Assembly (NCBI RefSeq): GCF_014200435.1
Contig: NZ_JACHBR010000001.1
Span: forward strand, 5,646,001-5,710,000
Direction of reading: 5' to 3'
Source: Sphaerisporangium krabiense
Lineage (GTDB): Bacteria; Actinomycetota; Actinomycetes; Streptosporangiales; Streptosporangiaceae
DNA: 64,000 nt
The translations under genes were made by a program, and so were the position numbers. The notes beneath the pieces are model-generated. The model worked only from the letters and a program-made list of their open reading frames with translations, was not told the DNA's origin and did not search any database. Shown here in pieces: positions 36,707 to 47,658 of the stretch. The first letter of the stretch is position 1; every line of letters starts with the position of its first letter.

Positions 36707-37267
36707 GTGGCGACGACCAACGACCTCAAGACCGGCCTTGTGCTCAGGCTCGACGGCGGCGAGCTGTGGAGCGTGGTGGAGTTCCAGCACGTCAAGCCCG
36801 GTAAGGGCGGCGCCTTCGTCCGCACCAAGCTGAAGAACGTGCTCTCGGGCAAGGTCGTGGACAAGACCTTCAACGCGGGCGTCAAGGTCGAGGTGGCCAA
36901 CGTCGACAAGCGCGAGATGCAGTTCTCCTACCTCGACGGCGACGAGTTCGTGTTCATGGACACCGAGACCTACGACATGCTGAACGTCCCGCGTCCCACG
37001 GTCGGCGACGCGGCCAACTACCTGCTGGAGAACGGCCTCGCCACGGTGGCGATCAACGACGGCAACGTCCTGTACGTCGAGCTTCCCGCCGCCGTCGAGC
37101 TGACCATCGCCCAGACCGAGCCGGGTCTGCAGGGCGACCGCTCCACCGGCGGCACCAAGCCCGCCACGCTGGAGACCGGCGCCGAGATCAAGGTCCCTCT
37201 CTTCATCACCACGGGTGAGAAGGTCAAGGTCGACACTCGCACCGGCGAGTACCTCGGCCGGGCCTGA
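36707..37267 (+). CDS. efp: Translation elongation factor P
   Basis: EF-P rescues ribosomes stalled at polyproline. The 186-residue protein has the usual three beta-barrel domains. The tip loop reads KPGKGGAF with Lys33 at the position modified in other bacteria. The C-terminal domain ends [12 protein letters not shown] 36707 has CAGGAG 7 nt upstream. nusB starts on the base after the stop. Proline-rich division proteins downstream (FtsI extension, FtsZ linker) are plausible EF-P clients (inference). Confidence 0.96.
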
Positions 37268-43170: not shown

Positions 43171-44450
43171 GCCGCGTCTCCTGAGGTGATGGTGCCGACC
43201 GGCCCGGCGAACCGGCTGTTCTGGGCGGCCTCCTGCCAGACCGCGGCGATCGAGGTGCCCGCGGGCAGGCGCACGACCCGCCACCCCGCGCCGGCGAGCA
43301 CGGCGCGCGCCAGTTCGTAGGGCTCGTTCTCGGCGGTGTGGTGCGCCGGGGTCTGCTGCCAGCCGCGCACGTCCAGCAGCACGGCCACGCCGGTGACCCC
43401 GCCGTGCCGCAGGCGGGCGAGCGCCCTGGCCTCCTCGGGGTCCAGGTCGCCGAGCACGGCCACGATGAGCCCGTCGCCGCCGCCCTGGCGCAGCGCCGCG
43501 ACGCCGGACTCCAGGGACCGCGCGGTGCTCTGGCGCACGACCGCGAGCGCGTCCAGCAGCCCGTGGCCGCCGGAGGCGTCGGCGAGGTGCTGGGCGCCCT
43601 GGTCGGTGACCAGCCGCAGGCCGAGACCGTCATGGGCCAGGTGTGCGCCGATCGAGGCGGCGGCCGACACCGCGACCTCGAAGGACGAGCGCGGTCCCTC
43701 GCCGCGGTGGGCGTGCCTGCGGGTGTCCAGCAGCAGGGCGCCCCTGCTCTGCCGCTGCTGCTCCTCGCGGCGCACCATCAGCTCGCCGTAGCGGGCGGTC
43801 GAGCGCCAGTGGACGCGCCGCAGGTCGTCGCCCTGGCGGTACTCGCGCGGGCCGACGTCGTCGTCCCCGGCCGCGGCCACGCTGGCCGTGCGGCTGTCGC
43901 CGCCGCCGGTCCACTCGCCCGAGAGCCTGACGTGGGGGAGCGGCACGACCTCCGGCACCACCGTGAGGGTGTCGGTGGCCGCGAACCCCCGGGTGAGCTC
44001 CACCAGGCCGAACGGGTCGGCGATGCGCACCGACAGCGGCCCGATCGGGAACCTGCCGCGCAGGTCGGAGCGCACCTTGTAGTCGATCTCGCGGACGCCC
44101 TGCGACTCGACCCGGTCCAGGACGAACCGGGGACGGGTGCCGACGGCGTAGGGGACGGTGTCCTCGATGAGGAGCAGGCCGGTGGGCAGCCGGGTGACGT
44201 TCTCCAGCCGCAGGGTCACGGTGCTGTCGGTGCCGACGGGCACGCGGGCCGGGTAGAGCCTGCGGGCGCAGCTCAGCCGGTAGCGGGTGCGGGCGACCAC
44301 CATCGCCGACAGGAGCGGGAGCGCGATGACGAGCACGCTGACCCGCAGCAGGTCGTGCTCGCCGAGCGCCACCGCGCACAGCAGCGCGGCCACGCCCGAG
44401 GCGAGGAAGGAGCGGCCGCGCGAGGTCAGCGCCCTGAGACCGGCGATCAC
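43167..44450 (-). CDS. DUF58-domain membrane protein
   Basis: The 427-residue protein has two N-terminal helices and a beta-rich domain, then the DUF58 signature PREYRQGDDLRRVHWRSTAR and a VWA-like C-terminal domain. It is the standard partner of MoxR ATPases. GTG 44450 overlaps the moxR stop (GTGA). The frame upstream of this GTG is a shadow of moxR. Confidence 0.87.
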   Translation of the reverse strand: MIAGLRALTSRGRSFLASGVAALLCAVALGEHDLLRVSVLVIALPLLSAMVVARTRYRLSCARRLYPARVPVGTDSTVTLRLENVTRLPTGLLLIEDTVPYAVGTRPRFVLDRVESQGVREIDYKVRSDLRGRFPIGPLSVRIADPFGLVELTRGFAATDTLTVVPEVVPLPHVRLSGEWTGGGDSRTASVAAAGDDDVGPREYRQGDDLRRVHWRSTARYGELMVRREEQQRQSRGALLLDTRRHAHRGEGPRSSFEVAVSAAASIGAHLAHDGLGLRLVTDQGAQHLADASGGHGLLDALAVVRQSTARSLESGVAALRQGGGDGLIVAVLGDLDPEEARALARLRHGGVTGVAVLLDVRGWQQTPAHHTAENEPYELARAVLAGAGWRVVRLPAGTSIAAVWQEAAQNSRFAGPVGTITSGDAA

Positions 44451-45442
44451 CGCGGCGCCGCCCCGCCCGCCCCCCTTTCCCGGCTCTCGGGCACGGGGAC
44501 GCGGCGCAGGAGGTCGGCCATGACGTGTTCGGGCCGCAGGCGCTGGCCCTGGGCCTCCAGGCTCGGGAGAAGACGGTGGGCGAGGACAGGGACGGCCAGG
44601 TCCTGCAGGTCGTCGGGGATGACGTAGTCGCGGCCCGACAGCGCGGCGTGCGCCCTGGCCGCCCGCACCAGGTGGAGCGTGGCGCGGGGCGAGGCGCCCA
44701 GGCGCAGGTCGCGGGTCTGCCGGGTGGCGGCCACCAGGTCGATGGCGTACCGCTTGATGGGCTGGGAGACGTAGACGGCGCGCACGGCGTCGATCAGCGC
44801 GCGCACCTCGGCGGTCGTGGCGACGGGTTGCAGCTTGTCCAGCGGCGAGGAGGCCCCGTGGACGTCCAGCATCTCCAGCTCGGCGGCCGGCTCGGGGTAG
44901 CCCATGGCGATCCGCGCCGTGAAGCGGTCGCGCTGGGCCTCGGGGAGGGGGTAGGTGCCCTCCATCTCGATGGGGTTCTGGGTCGCGATGACCATGAAGG
45001 GCGTGTCGAGCCGGTAGGTCGTGCCGTCGACGGTGACCTGGTGCTCCTCCATGCACTCCAGCAGGGCCGACTGCGTCTTGGGGGAGGCCCGGTTGATCTC
45101 GTCGCCCACGACGATGTTGGCGAAGACGGGCCCCGGCTTGAACTCGAACTCCCGCGACTGCTGGTTGAAGGCGCTGACGCCCGTGATGTCGCTGGGGAGA
45201 AGGTCCGGGGTGAACTGGACGCGGCGCACGGGGCAGTCGATGGACCGCGCGAGTGCCTTGGCCAGCATGGTCTTGCCGACGCCGGGGACGTCCTCGATGA
45301 GGAGGTGCCCCTCCGCCAGCATCACGGTGAGGGTGAGACGGACGACGTCGCCCTTTCCCTCGATCACCGATTCGATCGCCTCGCGGATCCGGTGCGCCGT
45401 CGCGACCAGACCCCCCAATTCCTGTCCGACATCGTGGGTCAC
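44447..45442 (-). CDS. MoxR-family AAA+ ATPase
   Basis: This 331-residue chaperone-like ATPase has Walker A EDVPGVGKTMLAKALA, Walker B VVGDEINRASPKTQSALLE, sensor IATQNPIEMEGTYPLPEAQ and the RDRF arginine region. It probably remodels the DUF58/transglutaminase partners. The start is between two GTGs: 45442 (10 nt after GGAGG, chosen) and 45448 (4 nt after it). Upstream sequence in this frame is non-coding in character. Confidence 0.88.
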   Translation of the reverse strand: MTHDVGQELGGLVATAHRIREAIESVIEGKGDVVRLTLTVMLAEGHLLIEDVPGVGKTMLAKALARSIDCPVRRVQFTPDLLPSDITGVSAFNQQSREFEFKPGPVFANIVVGDEINRASPKTQSALLECMEEHQVTVDGTTYRLDTPFMVIATQNPIEMEGTYPLPEAQRDRFTARIAMGYPEPAAELEMLDVHGASSPLDKLQPVATTAEVRALIDAVRAVYVSQPIKRYAIDLVAATRQTRDLRLGASPRATLHLVRAARAHAALSGRDYVIPDDLQDLAVPVLAHRLLPSLEAQGQRLRPEHVMADLLRRVPVPESRERGAGGAAPR

Positions 45443-45857
45443 TCCCACCGGGCCTCCATGAGGGTGTGGTAGCCCACGCGGGGTGGTATTGCGGGGGCTT
45501 TGCCGTTCTTCTTCATTCTGTGTACCGACACTATGATGCGGGGAGTTTCCAGGCGACGTTCCGTGATATTCCGGGAGAACTGGCCCCAAGTGTTCTGGCC
45601 GGTGGTCGCGGTGCCGTCCCGCCGGTGTCCGAATCCCGTGACATTCGGCTGCGAGATCCCCCCACTTTCCCCCACCCGCGGCCCTCCCGCCGCACGATCG
45701 CCCAGACAGGTGCGGCATGCCCGCCCGGACGGTGTCAAGGGGGCGATTCCGACACGCCCGTGCGCACGCGCGCCCCCTCAGGGCGCCCCACTCTGCTCCA
45801 CCTGCTCTGACCTGCGGAAATGTCGGCGAATTGGCGCGCTGAAGTTGTTTGGATCAG
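45443..45857. other. Divergent intergenic region moxR/mraZ
   Basis: No convincing gene is present. A 25-codon frame on the minus strand (45516-45439) ends GTGA-overlapping the moxR start but has no Shine-Dalgarno. The rest holds the moxR promoter, which I cannot define, and leads into the mraZ control region. Confidence 0.4.
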
Positions 45858-45900
45858 TTGACGGTGGGGAGAAGTGGAGTATGGTGGTGCGCAGTGGAGG
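45858..45900 (+). promoter_or_regulatory. mraZ promoter with four-box MraZ operator
   Basis: TTGACG (45858-45863), a 16-bp spacer and TATGGT (45880-45885) form a promoter. GTGG boxes start at 45864, 45874, 45884 and 45894, at an exact 10-bp period, covering the spacer, the -10 and the start region. MraZ is known to bind short G-rich direct repeats with one-turn spacing in its own promoter. Confidence 0.7.
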
Positions 45901-45950
45901 GGCTGGGGCCATGGCGTCAGTCGTTCCATGTGGCACGGGAGGTGGGGCCG

Positions 45951-46382
45951 GTGTTTCTCGGCACCCATCACCCGCGTCTGGATGAGAAAGGACGACTGTT
46001 CCTGCCGGCGAAGTACCGTGAGGAGCTGGCGGAGGGTCTTGTGATCACCAAGGGCCAGGAGCGGTGCCTCTACGTGTTTCCCGTGGAGGAGTTCCAGCGC
46101 ATCACCGAGGCGCTGCGTACCGCACCCGTGACCGCCAAGGCCGTCCGCGATTACAGTCGCGTCCTTTTCGCCGGCGCCTCCGACGAGACGCCCGACAAAC
46201 AAGGGCGGATCACCATTCCCCAGGGCCTGCGCGAGTACGCGGGCCTCCGCCGGGACTGCGCCGTCATCGGGGCGAACACCCGGCTGGAGATCTGGGACGC
46301 CGCGGCCTGGGACACCTACCTGGCCGCCCAAGAGCAGGCTTTCTCCGATCTCTCGGAGGAGGTGCTGCCAGGGATCCTTTGA
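45951..46382 (+). CDS. mraZ: Transcriptional regulator MraZ
   Basis: This DNA-binding regulator of the dcw cluster has 143 residues, the standard length. Two MraZ (AbrB-like) repeats are evident: [23 protein letters not shown] and, in the second half, [21 protein letters not shown] 45951 has GGGAGG 7 nt upstream; the frame's 34 extra upstream codons are not part of the family. It heads the cluster and should repress it through the GTGG boxes. Confidence 0.94.
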
Positions 46383-46674
46383 CAACGGTCGACTCGTCGG
46401 TGAAAGACGTCGTTCGGCGAGGTCTCCACCCGCTCCCGAGGAGCCCGGCACGTTCGCGCGGGCACCACGGCGCCGCCGTCAGCTGATGCACCTTCCCCGG
46501 TGTCAGGTGACGGCGCGTCGGCAGGGGACGCGGATGGGGACCTGGCCGGGCGAGCCGTCACCAGGGTGGGGTGAGAACCGGCGAGAAGACGCACGACAGG
46601 CCGCGCATCCGCGAGCAAGGTCCGTGTCCCGGGGGTCCACCGACACGGTCATGGCGGCAAGAGGGGGTTTCATC
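46383..46674 (+). other. Untranslated gap between mraZ and rsmH with two stem candidates
   Basis: GGTGACGGC (46506-46514) can pair with GCCGTCACC (46554-46562), and CCGTGTC (46622-46628) with GACACGG (46642-46648). No gene is supported. A separate promoter or attenuator for rsmH is possible. Confidence 0.4.
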
Positions 46675-47658
46675 ATGCATGTCGACGAGCATGCCGGAGT
46701 TCACGGCGAGCCGGGCGGTCACGTCCCGGTGATGCTGCGCCGTGTCCTCGAACTGCTGGCACCGGCCCTGGACAGGCCCGGCGCCGTGCTGGTCGACGCC
46801 AACCTCGGTCTCGGGGGGCACGCCGAGGCGCTGCTCGCCGCGCACCCCGGCCTCCACCTGGTCGGCATCGACCGCGACCCCGACGCCATCGCGCGCTCCA
46901 CCGCCCGCCTCGCGCCCTACGCCGGGCGCGCCACCCTGGTGCGGGCCGTCTCCGACGAACTGCCCGGCGTGCTCGCGCGCACCGGGCACCCGAGGGTCGA
47001 CGGCGTGCTGTTCGACCTCGGCGTCTCCTCTCCCCAGCTCGACGAGGCCGGGCGCGGCTTCGCCTACTCCTACGACGCCCCGCTGGACATGCGCATGGAC
47101 TCCGAGCAGGAGCTCACGGCGCACATCGTCGTGAACACCTACTCCGAGGGCGAGCTCACCCGCATCCTGCGCGACTACGGAGAGGAGCGCTTCGCCTCCC
47201 GCGTCGCGCGCCTCATCGTCAGGCAGCGCGCCGCCGGGCCCATCGCGTCCACCAAGCGGCTCGCGGAGATCGTCCGTGAGGCGATCCCGGCCGCGACCCG
47301 CCGCACCGGCGGGAACCCCGCCAAGAGAACGTTCCAAGCACTGCGCATCGAGGTGAACGGAGAGCTGAGCGCCTTCGAGGGCGCCCTCCCCGCCGCGCTC
47401 GACGCCCTGACGGTCGGAGGGCGGGTGGTCGTCCTTTCGTACCACTCGCTGGAGGACCGGCTGAGCAAGCAGATCATCGCCGAGCGGACCAGGGACACGA
47501 GCCCTCCGGGGCTCCCCGTCCCCCTGCCGGCGCACGCGCCGAGGTTCCGCTCGGTGACCAGAGGGGCGGAGGTCCCGGACGAGGACGAGATCGCGCGCAA
47601 CCCGCGCGCGGCCTCGGCCCGGCTGCGGGCCGCAGAGAGAATCCGGGAGCCGGAATGA
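46675..47658 (+). CDS. rsmH: 16S rRNA (cytosine-1402-N4)-methyltransferase RsmH
   Basis: The enzyme methylates N4 of C1402 in the ribosomal P site. The 327-residue protein has [13 protein letters not shown], the AdoMet motif [23 protein letters not shown] and the family hallmark [20 protein letters not shown] followed by LDMRMD, plus a helical insertion and [14 protein letters not shown] 46675 has AGAGGGGG about 8 nt upstream. An ATG at 46651 (8 residues longer) is an alternative. The stop overlaps ftsL by ATGA. Confidence 0.94.

Follow-up and report, generated by a model that had tools for sequence, protein, structure and literature searches.

The mraZ gene of Sphaerisporangium krabiense probably stands behind a two-arm MraZ autoregulatory operator at the head of the division and cell-wall cluster, a reading drawn from sequence patterns across related genomes. 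One arm consists of four GTGG boxes lying over the core promoter of mraZ, and the other of pairs of the same box on the opposite strand further upstream, the nearer pair standing at a distance of whole helical turns from the first arm. In many bacteria, MraZ stands first in the division cluster. The kind of operator is known; its placement over the core promoter and its phased reverse arm are undescribed in the literature consulted. A description of an actinobacterial MraZ operator or of a reverse arm was not found in that literature, subscription papers aside, and may be in print.

The forward array over the mraZ promoter

The window examined in this study is the whole stretch of 64,000 nucleotides that was analysed. 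Within it, GTGG boxes begin at positions 45864, 45874, 45884 and 45894 of the plus strand, in exact 10-bp steps, and cover the promoter TTGACG-N16-TATGGT just as the sequence-only reading had described. The -35 hexamer TTGACG (45858..45863, plus strand, assigned by consensus only) abuts predicted MraZ box 1 (GTGGGG, 45864..45869), and the -10 hexamer TATGGT (45880..45885, plus strand), 16 nucleotides after TTGACG, is interlocked with predicted boxes 2 (GTGGAG, 45874..45879) and 3 (GTGGTG, 45884..45889). Predicted box 4 (GTGGAG, 45894..45899) falls at about the expected transcription start. All four boxes lie on the plus strand and were assigned on the basis of sequence and conservation. The mraZ coding sequence (45951..46382, plus strand) has a GTG start and belongs to TIGR00242 and to Pfam MraZ; its product scores 130.9 bits against TIGR00242 (cut-off 98.35), contains two stretches matched by Pfam MraZ and hence two MraZ domains, and matches the MraZ chain 1n0e of the PDB with an E-value of 1.2e-20. 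Its closest named relatives are from Sphaerisporangium, with the MraZ of S. album at 95%. The open frame at 46486..47658 (plus strand, with the true start inside the frame) is one that we take to be rsmH (mraW), an assignment that agrees with the gene order of E. coli. On the other side of the promoter, a divergent moxR-like gene (44447..45442, minus strand, start set by homology) is presumably moxR.

The three-box pattern GTGG-N6-GTGG-N6-GTGG gave two overlapping matches in the window, both of them the mraZ promoter site, compared to a mean of 0.04 and a largest value of 1 in 100 dinucleotide shuffles of the window. When positions 45700-45950 were shuffled 20,000 times, a run of four appeared in none of the shuffles and a run of three in 14, and a chance origin of the array was excluded by the window and regional shuffles together. 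The 8.53-Mb genome contains four exact three-box matches, two of them at the mraZ promoter, and an exact pattern search of this genome found no second four-box site elsewhere. A genome search allowing two mismatches gave seven matches (two of which are the mraZ site) versus 13 for the reversed control; therefore, there is no signal of a wider MraZ regulon, and this candidate was rejected. Elsewhere in the same genus, 10-bp tandem repeats containing GTGG occur away from mraZ at G164:C3:231385-231458 and at G031:C1:1498865-1498948 and 5706218-5706271. In addition, a three-box site approximately 9 kb upstream of mraZ, present in 3 of 11 genomes of the genus, lies opposite a 557-aa open frame in the two loci inspected and was taken as coding.

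The array is strongly conserved. A comparison of mraZ promoters gave at least four periodic boxes in all 80 named loci (the best 80 of 575, near relatives), with five boxes in 5 of these 80 (two Herbidospora and three Acrocarpospora) and with TTGAC immediately 5' of box 1 in the printed rows of these relatives. All 80 named loci were parsed, and own-family loci in reverse orientation were left unparsed in the box-count survey. Across a class-wide sample, runs of at least three GTGG at exactly 10 bp were found in 102 of the 126 mraZ upstream regions parsed (126 of 128 loci in this run-length survey, 120 of 128 in another), and the remaining 24 contained runs of one or two, compared to a run of three in 1 of 6,300 shuffled class regions. 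The spacing of GTGG pairs in the class loci was 10 bp in 334 cases, 9 bp in 13 and 11 bp in 10. The anchored consensus of 121 regions reads (A)GTGGNG every 10 bp, with boxes 2 and 3 flanking the TA of the -10; box 2 and this TA were fixed by the anchor, and the anchor columns are conserved by that selection. Of the 61 own-family genomes, 58 have a single match to the promoter-plus-box pattern GTGGNGNNNNGTGGNGTANNGTGGNG (reversed control, 0). Compared by eye with the place of mraZ, 57 of these matches adjoin mraZ on the same contig, and in G040 the GTGGNGNNNNGTGGNGTANNGTGGNG match and the mraZ match are on different contigs. The three exceptions are G018, the sole genome of the 61 without an MraZ match, and G007 and G042, in which MraZ is present and the pattern is absent.

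Fate of the boxes where mraZ is missing

An MraZ match is absent from 8 of the 108 class genomes, all eight belonging to one genus (g76 in family f16, perhaps Streptomyces) with genomes of about 7-10 Mb. Within family f16, MraZ is present in 30 of 71 genomes and absent from 41, and rsmH was found in 70 of the 71. These absences are read as losses because MraZ is present in 100 of the 108 class genomes. In a tree made by a quick method from 70 RsmH sequences and 5 outgroup rows, the MraZ state has to change twice, and the starred branches force two changes as well; we read the MraZ-less f16 genomes as having arisen by at least two separate losses. Raw counts in this study are inflated by relatedness, and the independent units are families and losses.

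The looser promoter-plus-box pattern GTGGNNNNNNGTGGNGTANNGTGG is present in the same 30 f16 genomes as MraZ and in none of the 41 MraZ-less ones; its reversed control gave scattered matches in this family. In 40 of the 41 MraZ-less genomes, the region upstream of rsmH holds no run of GTGG longer than two, and the TTGA-N-TA promoter frame survives at the same spacing in 32 of these 40 loci. In the 32 surviving frames, GTGG stands at boxes 1 to 4 in 0, 25, 3 and 3 cases and box 3 reads GTGA in 23, where the frames were picked by their -35/-10 pattern (found in 32 of 40), a choice that selects the -35 and -10, leaves boxes 1, 2 and 4 free, and constrains, within box 3, the T at the second position and to some degree the first position (G or A). 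The corresponding counts in the 30 MraZ-bearing f16 genomes are 30, 30, 30 and 22, with the frame holding the most boxes taken in each genome, which favours them; the presence comparison of 30 versus 41 genomes is independent of that choice. Box retention follows MraZ retention in f16 (30 of 30 versus 0 of 41) and in G018, the exception being box 2 alone. This distribution suggests that boxes 1, 3 and 4 depend on MraZ. As 25 of the 32 MraZ-less frames still have box 2, not all of the box conservation is due to MraZ; some further reason must keep box 2 in place, perhaps promoter function. In several genomes of genus g76 (L303, L311, L314 and L319), GACAC, a candidate WhiA motif, appears where box 1 is lost.

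The sequence-only reading had proposed an MraZ autorepression operator, and this proposal has stood up as a prediction: the motif is that of the published 10-bp GTG repeats, it is conserved at mraZ, and the boxes are lost with mraZ. That the forward boxes are an MraZ operator is, in our judgement, very probable.

Reverse boxes upstream and their helical phasing

The earlier interpretation of the forward array as a predicted MraZ operator is supported as far as it goes and was incomplete in that it missed boxes of reverse orientation on the minus strand. A scan of the window for two consensus boxes found, besides the array, four pairs, two of which are on the minus strand in the intergenic stretch between mraZ and moxR. 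The predicted proximal pair (45786..45801, with 5' G at 45801 and 45791) is 63 bp from box 1, and the predicted distal pair (45660..45675, with 5' G at 45675 and 45665) is 189 bp from it. The other two pairs in the window are at 36766 (plus strand) and 38533 (minus strand).

The orientation of these upstream pairs is markedly one-sided. In the 400 bp upstream of the array, 74 of the 80 named loci (best 80 of 575) have GTGG-N6-GTGG on the minus strand and 1 of them has it on the plus strand. In control searches of the same loci (best 80 of 575), 23 of 80 had GGTG at the same spacing and 10 of 80 had GTGG spaced by 9 or 11 bp; G-rich pairs as such are therefore not rare there. A profile model built from the forward boxes (threshold, 16 bits) gave 99 minus-strand and 0 plus-strand hits in the 80 named loci (best 80 of 575), 32 and 7 in the 60 class loci outside the two families (60 of 92, the others lacking an anchor or enough upstream sequence), and 2 and 0 in the 30 MraZ-bearing f16 loci, with shuffles giving 0.0 per pass. 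Within 260 bp, 25 of 29 own-family loci have a reverse pair, as do 26 of the 60 class loci outside the two families (where a plus-strand pair occurs in 8 of 60) and 2 of the 30 MraZ-bearing f16 genomes; its absence from many MraZ-bearing loci means that MraZ control can do without it. No reverse pair was found within 260 bp of the 32 MraZ-less f16 frames, an absence that proves little because the pair is rare in f16 anyway, and a minus-strand pair lies elsewhere upstream of rsmH in 2 of the 40 MraZ-less f16 genomes. One genome of family f11 (G090) has two mraZ matches (C39:26808-27236 and C64:37913-38341), each with its own forward array and reverse pair, reflecting either a duplication or a mixed assembly.

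The position of the nearer pair is equally regular. Among the 80 named loci (best 80 of 575), it stands at 62/63 or 72/73 bp in 53, at least one box is in the 62/63 register in 76, and the distance of the distal pair varies from 155 to 202 bp. In the two boxes of the reverse pairs, the G at position 5, which was not selected for, is kept in 49 and 52 of 53, and the bases between the GTGGs vary; this position-5 G is the presumptive signature of an MraZ box. Judging by these features, the reverse boxes very probably bind MraZ as well.

Phasing was examined with a joint pattern (reverse pair, free gap of 46-76 bp, forward array) searched in 393 class genomes. It gave 57 matches in 56 of the 393 genomes, which is the share of genomes searched and not a rate among array-bearing genomes, distributed over 13 families, compared to 1 for the reversed pattern among the matches listed; the position of a match beside mraZ was checked where the place of mraZ was known from protein searches. 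The gap is 59-63 bp in 44 of the 57 matches and 71-74 bp in 13, with no other value in the range of 46-76 bp. With each family contributing a given gap value only once (24 values), none of 20,000 uniform random draws reached the phase coherence seen for periods of 10.5, 11 and 11.5 bp, and 1 of 20,000 reached that for 10 bp; coherence was highest at 11.5 bp, the largest period tried. Both gap lengths are found inside the single families f1 and f28 and differ by one helical turn, as would be expected if both arms must share one face of the helix. Within the searched range of 46-76 bp, distances between the two parts are restricted to whole turns. Outside this range, reverse pairs occur at many distances (84, 95, 107 bp and more), in single loci each, and phasing is not claimed for them.

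A further conserved element, TGACCTGC (45808..45815, plus strand), lies between the arms, 56 bp from box 1. It is present in 49 of the 80 named loci (best 80 of 575), always at 56 bp from box 1, and occurs once in 143 kb further downstream in the same loci when both strands are counted. Words similar to it (TGACCAGC, TGATCTGC and TGACGTGC) are seen in joint-pattern matches of other families.

There is another potential explanation for the reverse pairs, which we consider unlikely: they could be separate MraZ sites for the divergent moxR operon, or for an unannotated leftward promoter, with the forward array as the MraZ operator. The pairs point toward moxR, and in most of the loci checked a divergent moxR is the adjacent gene. 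Moreover, among the 27 f16 loci with a strict array and moxR, a pair is found only in L262 and L271, where the distance to moxR is 340 and 378 bp; the 25 loci in which moxR lies at 757-1054 bp have no reverse pair by the array, nor do they have one just upstream of moxR. However, the spacing of the proximal pair keeps it in helical register with the mraZ promoter, and the promoter-like block facing moxR is farther out than the distal pair by roughly 110-130 bp; this conserved block, near 45533 on the minus strand of the window, contains a TANNNT hexamer (TAGTGT here, TAGGGT in Nonomuraea) and is perhaps the moxR promoter. L132 and L138 keep pairs at 63 and 178/179 bp with no moxR found in the stretch examined, and L117-L121, L123, L125-L127, L129, L134 and L140 have moxR nearby and no pair. 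The distance between moxR and the array, 757-1054 bp in 25 of the 27 f16 loci where the reverse arm is absent, compares with mostly 0.3-0.6 kb in the named loci, and our guess is that a gene has been inserted between moxR and the array in the f16 loci with a distant moxR.

Known MraZ sites and a proposed mechanism

MraZ boxes at Pmra of E. coli were reportedly described by Eraso et al. 2014, a study cited in PMC8475190, and the Mollicutes MraZ site is said to have been described by Fisunov et al. 2016. E. coli MG1655 (K-12) carries three GTGG spaced 10 bp apart, which stand, relative to the start of mraZ, at -44, -34 and -24; a scan of the 534 bp upstream of K-12 mraZ found no reverse pair. 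E. coli thus resembles S. krabiense in having GTGG at exact 10-bp steps on the same strand as mraZ and differs in that its three boxes lie past the -10 without a reverse pair, whereas the four boxes of S. krabiense extend over both the -35/-10 spacer and the -10, with a reverse arm in addition. The E. coli boxes sit downstream of the -10 according to the portion of PMC7761207 consulted, and TTGACA/TAAACT, seen in the E. coli sequence, agrees with boxes 3' of the -10. In the same portion of that source, PmraBc of Burkholderia cenocepacia has four 7-nt repeats with 3-nt spacers and thus a 10-bp period, and a 250-bp fragment with the four repeats was bound by MraZ in EMSA (PMC7761207). Four repeats at a 10-bp period are shared with the array described here; in contrast, the B. 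cenocepacia repeats overlap the transcription start and follow the -10, and the consulted portion does not mention a reverse arm (PMC7761207). The earlier claim of one box more than in E. coli holds against the three GTGG of that species, but four boxes are ordinary among near relatives and in Burkholderia. Four boxes were accordingly dropped as a novelty, being the rule among near relatives and already published for B. cenocepacia. The Mollicutes site, as quoted in excerpts of two papers (PMC5282649, PMC8475190), is (AAAGTGKN3)3; it shares the 10-bp period, the GTG core and the A before GTG, and differs in having three repeats and, in those excerpts, no mention of a reverse arm, compared to the four boxes and reverse arm here.

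Two further explanations concern the boxes themselves. It is very improbable that another regulator, for instance MtrA, owns the GTGG boxes and that MraZ is a bystander. MtrA binds and represses the mraZ promoter in Dietzia, according to the part of PMC9602371 consulted, and TGACCTGC is a second conserved element at a fixed place upstream; nevertheless, the triple-box promoter tracks MraZ genome by genome, and the boxes agree with the E. coli site as well as with the published Mollicutes (PMC5282649) and Burkholderia (PMC7761207) sites in the portions consulted. Hardly credible at all is the idea that the G-rich array acts as a DNA G-quadruplex, for which an extract of PMC11796246 offers a precedent in the mraZ promoter of S. 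aureus (a parallel G-quadruplex in a guanine-rich stretch downstream of PmraZ), given that four tracts of at least three G occur in 5 of 123 array regions with loops of 1-7 and in 6 of 123 with loops up to 12, that such tracts are absent from the window array (two-guanine quadruplexes being left out of this count), and that a quadruplex needs no exact 10-bp spacing and explains no decay upon loss of mraZ. By analogy, the S. aureus quadruplex stretch may be the MraZ operator itself, as the boxes are G-rich and are found there in E. coli.

Returning to the two-arm operator, MraZ is described as an octameric ring in PMC7761207 and as an octamer in PMC5282649, as far as the consulted parts of these sources go. 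On the forward arm, the four (A)GTGGNG boxes in 10-bp steps, interlocked with the -35 and -10, would offer the same face of the helix to successive MraZ subunits, one turn apart, and an MraZ ring seated there would exclude RNA polymerase, so that MraZ would limit its own operon. The second arm would be the reverse pair, which lies on the same face at a distance of six helical turns upstream (in some lineages, seven), often with another reverse pair further out as part of the same arm. This arm could be occupied by other subunits of the same ring or by another ring in contact with it, and the arms so bridged would loop the approximately 60 bp between them. For such bridging of the reverse boxes with the forward array, the arrangement of the boxes leaves the probabilities evenly balanced. 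Looped repressors of the lac, gal and ara type have phased auxiliary operators whose distances are limited to whole helical turns. The arrangement described here is alike in that the distance between its parts is restricted to whole turns; it differs in the kinds of site and protein, with short direct repeats and a ring protein here, and with looping that is putative. A more specific version is a tentative proposal, to which we give somewhat less than an even chance on the strength of the sequence pattern: a closed repression loop, in which the ring would hold the four forward boxes and the inverted pair six or seven turns upstream, and the DNA carrying TGACCTGC for a second factor would be bent back. 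If this closed-loop reading is true, the promoter would combine the dose of MraZ with a second signal.

Where mraZ was lost naturally and left an identifiable remnant promoter, the genomes offer a ready comparison for what the boxes do. An inverted, helically locked operator with two arms would give the MraZ ring a job, that of holding two stretches of DNA.
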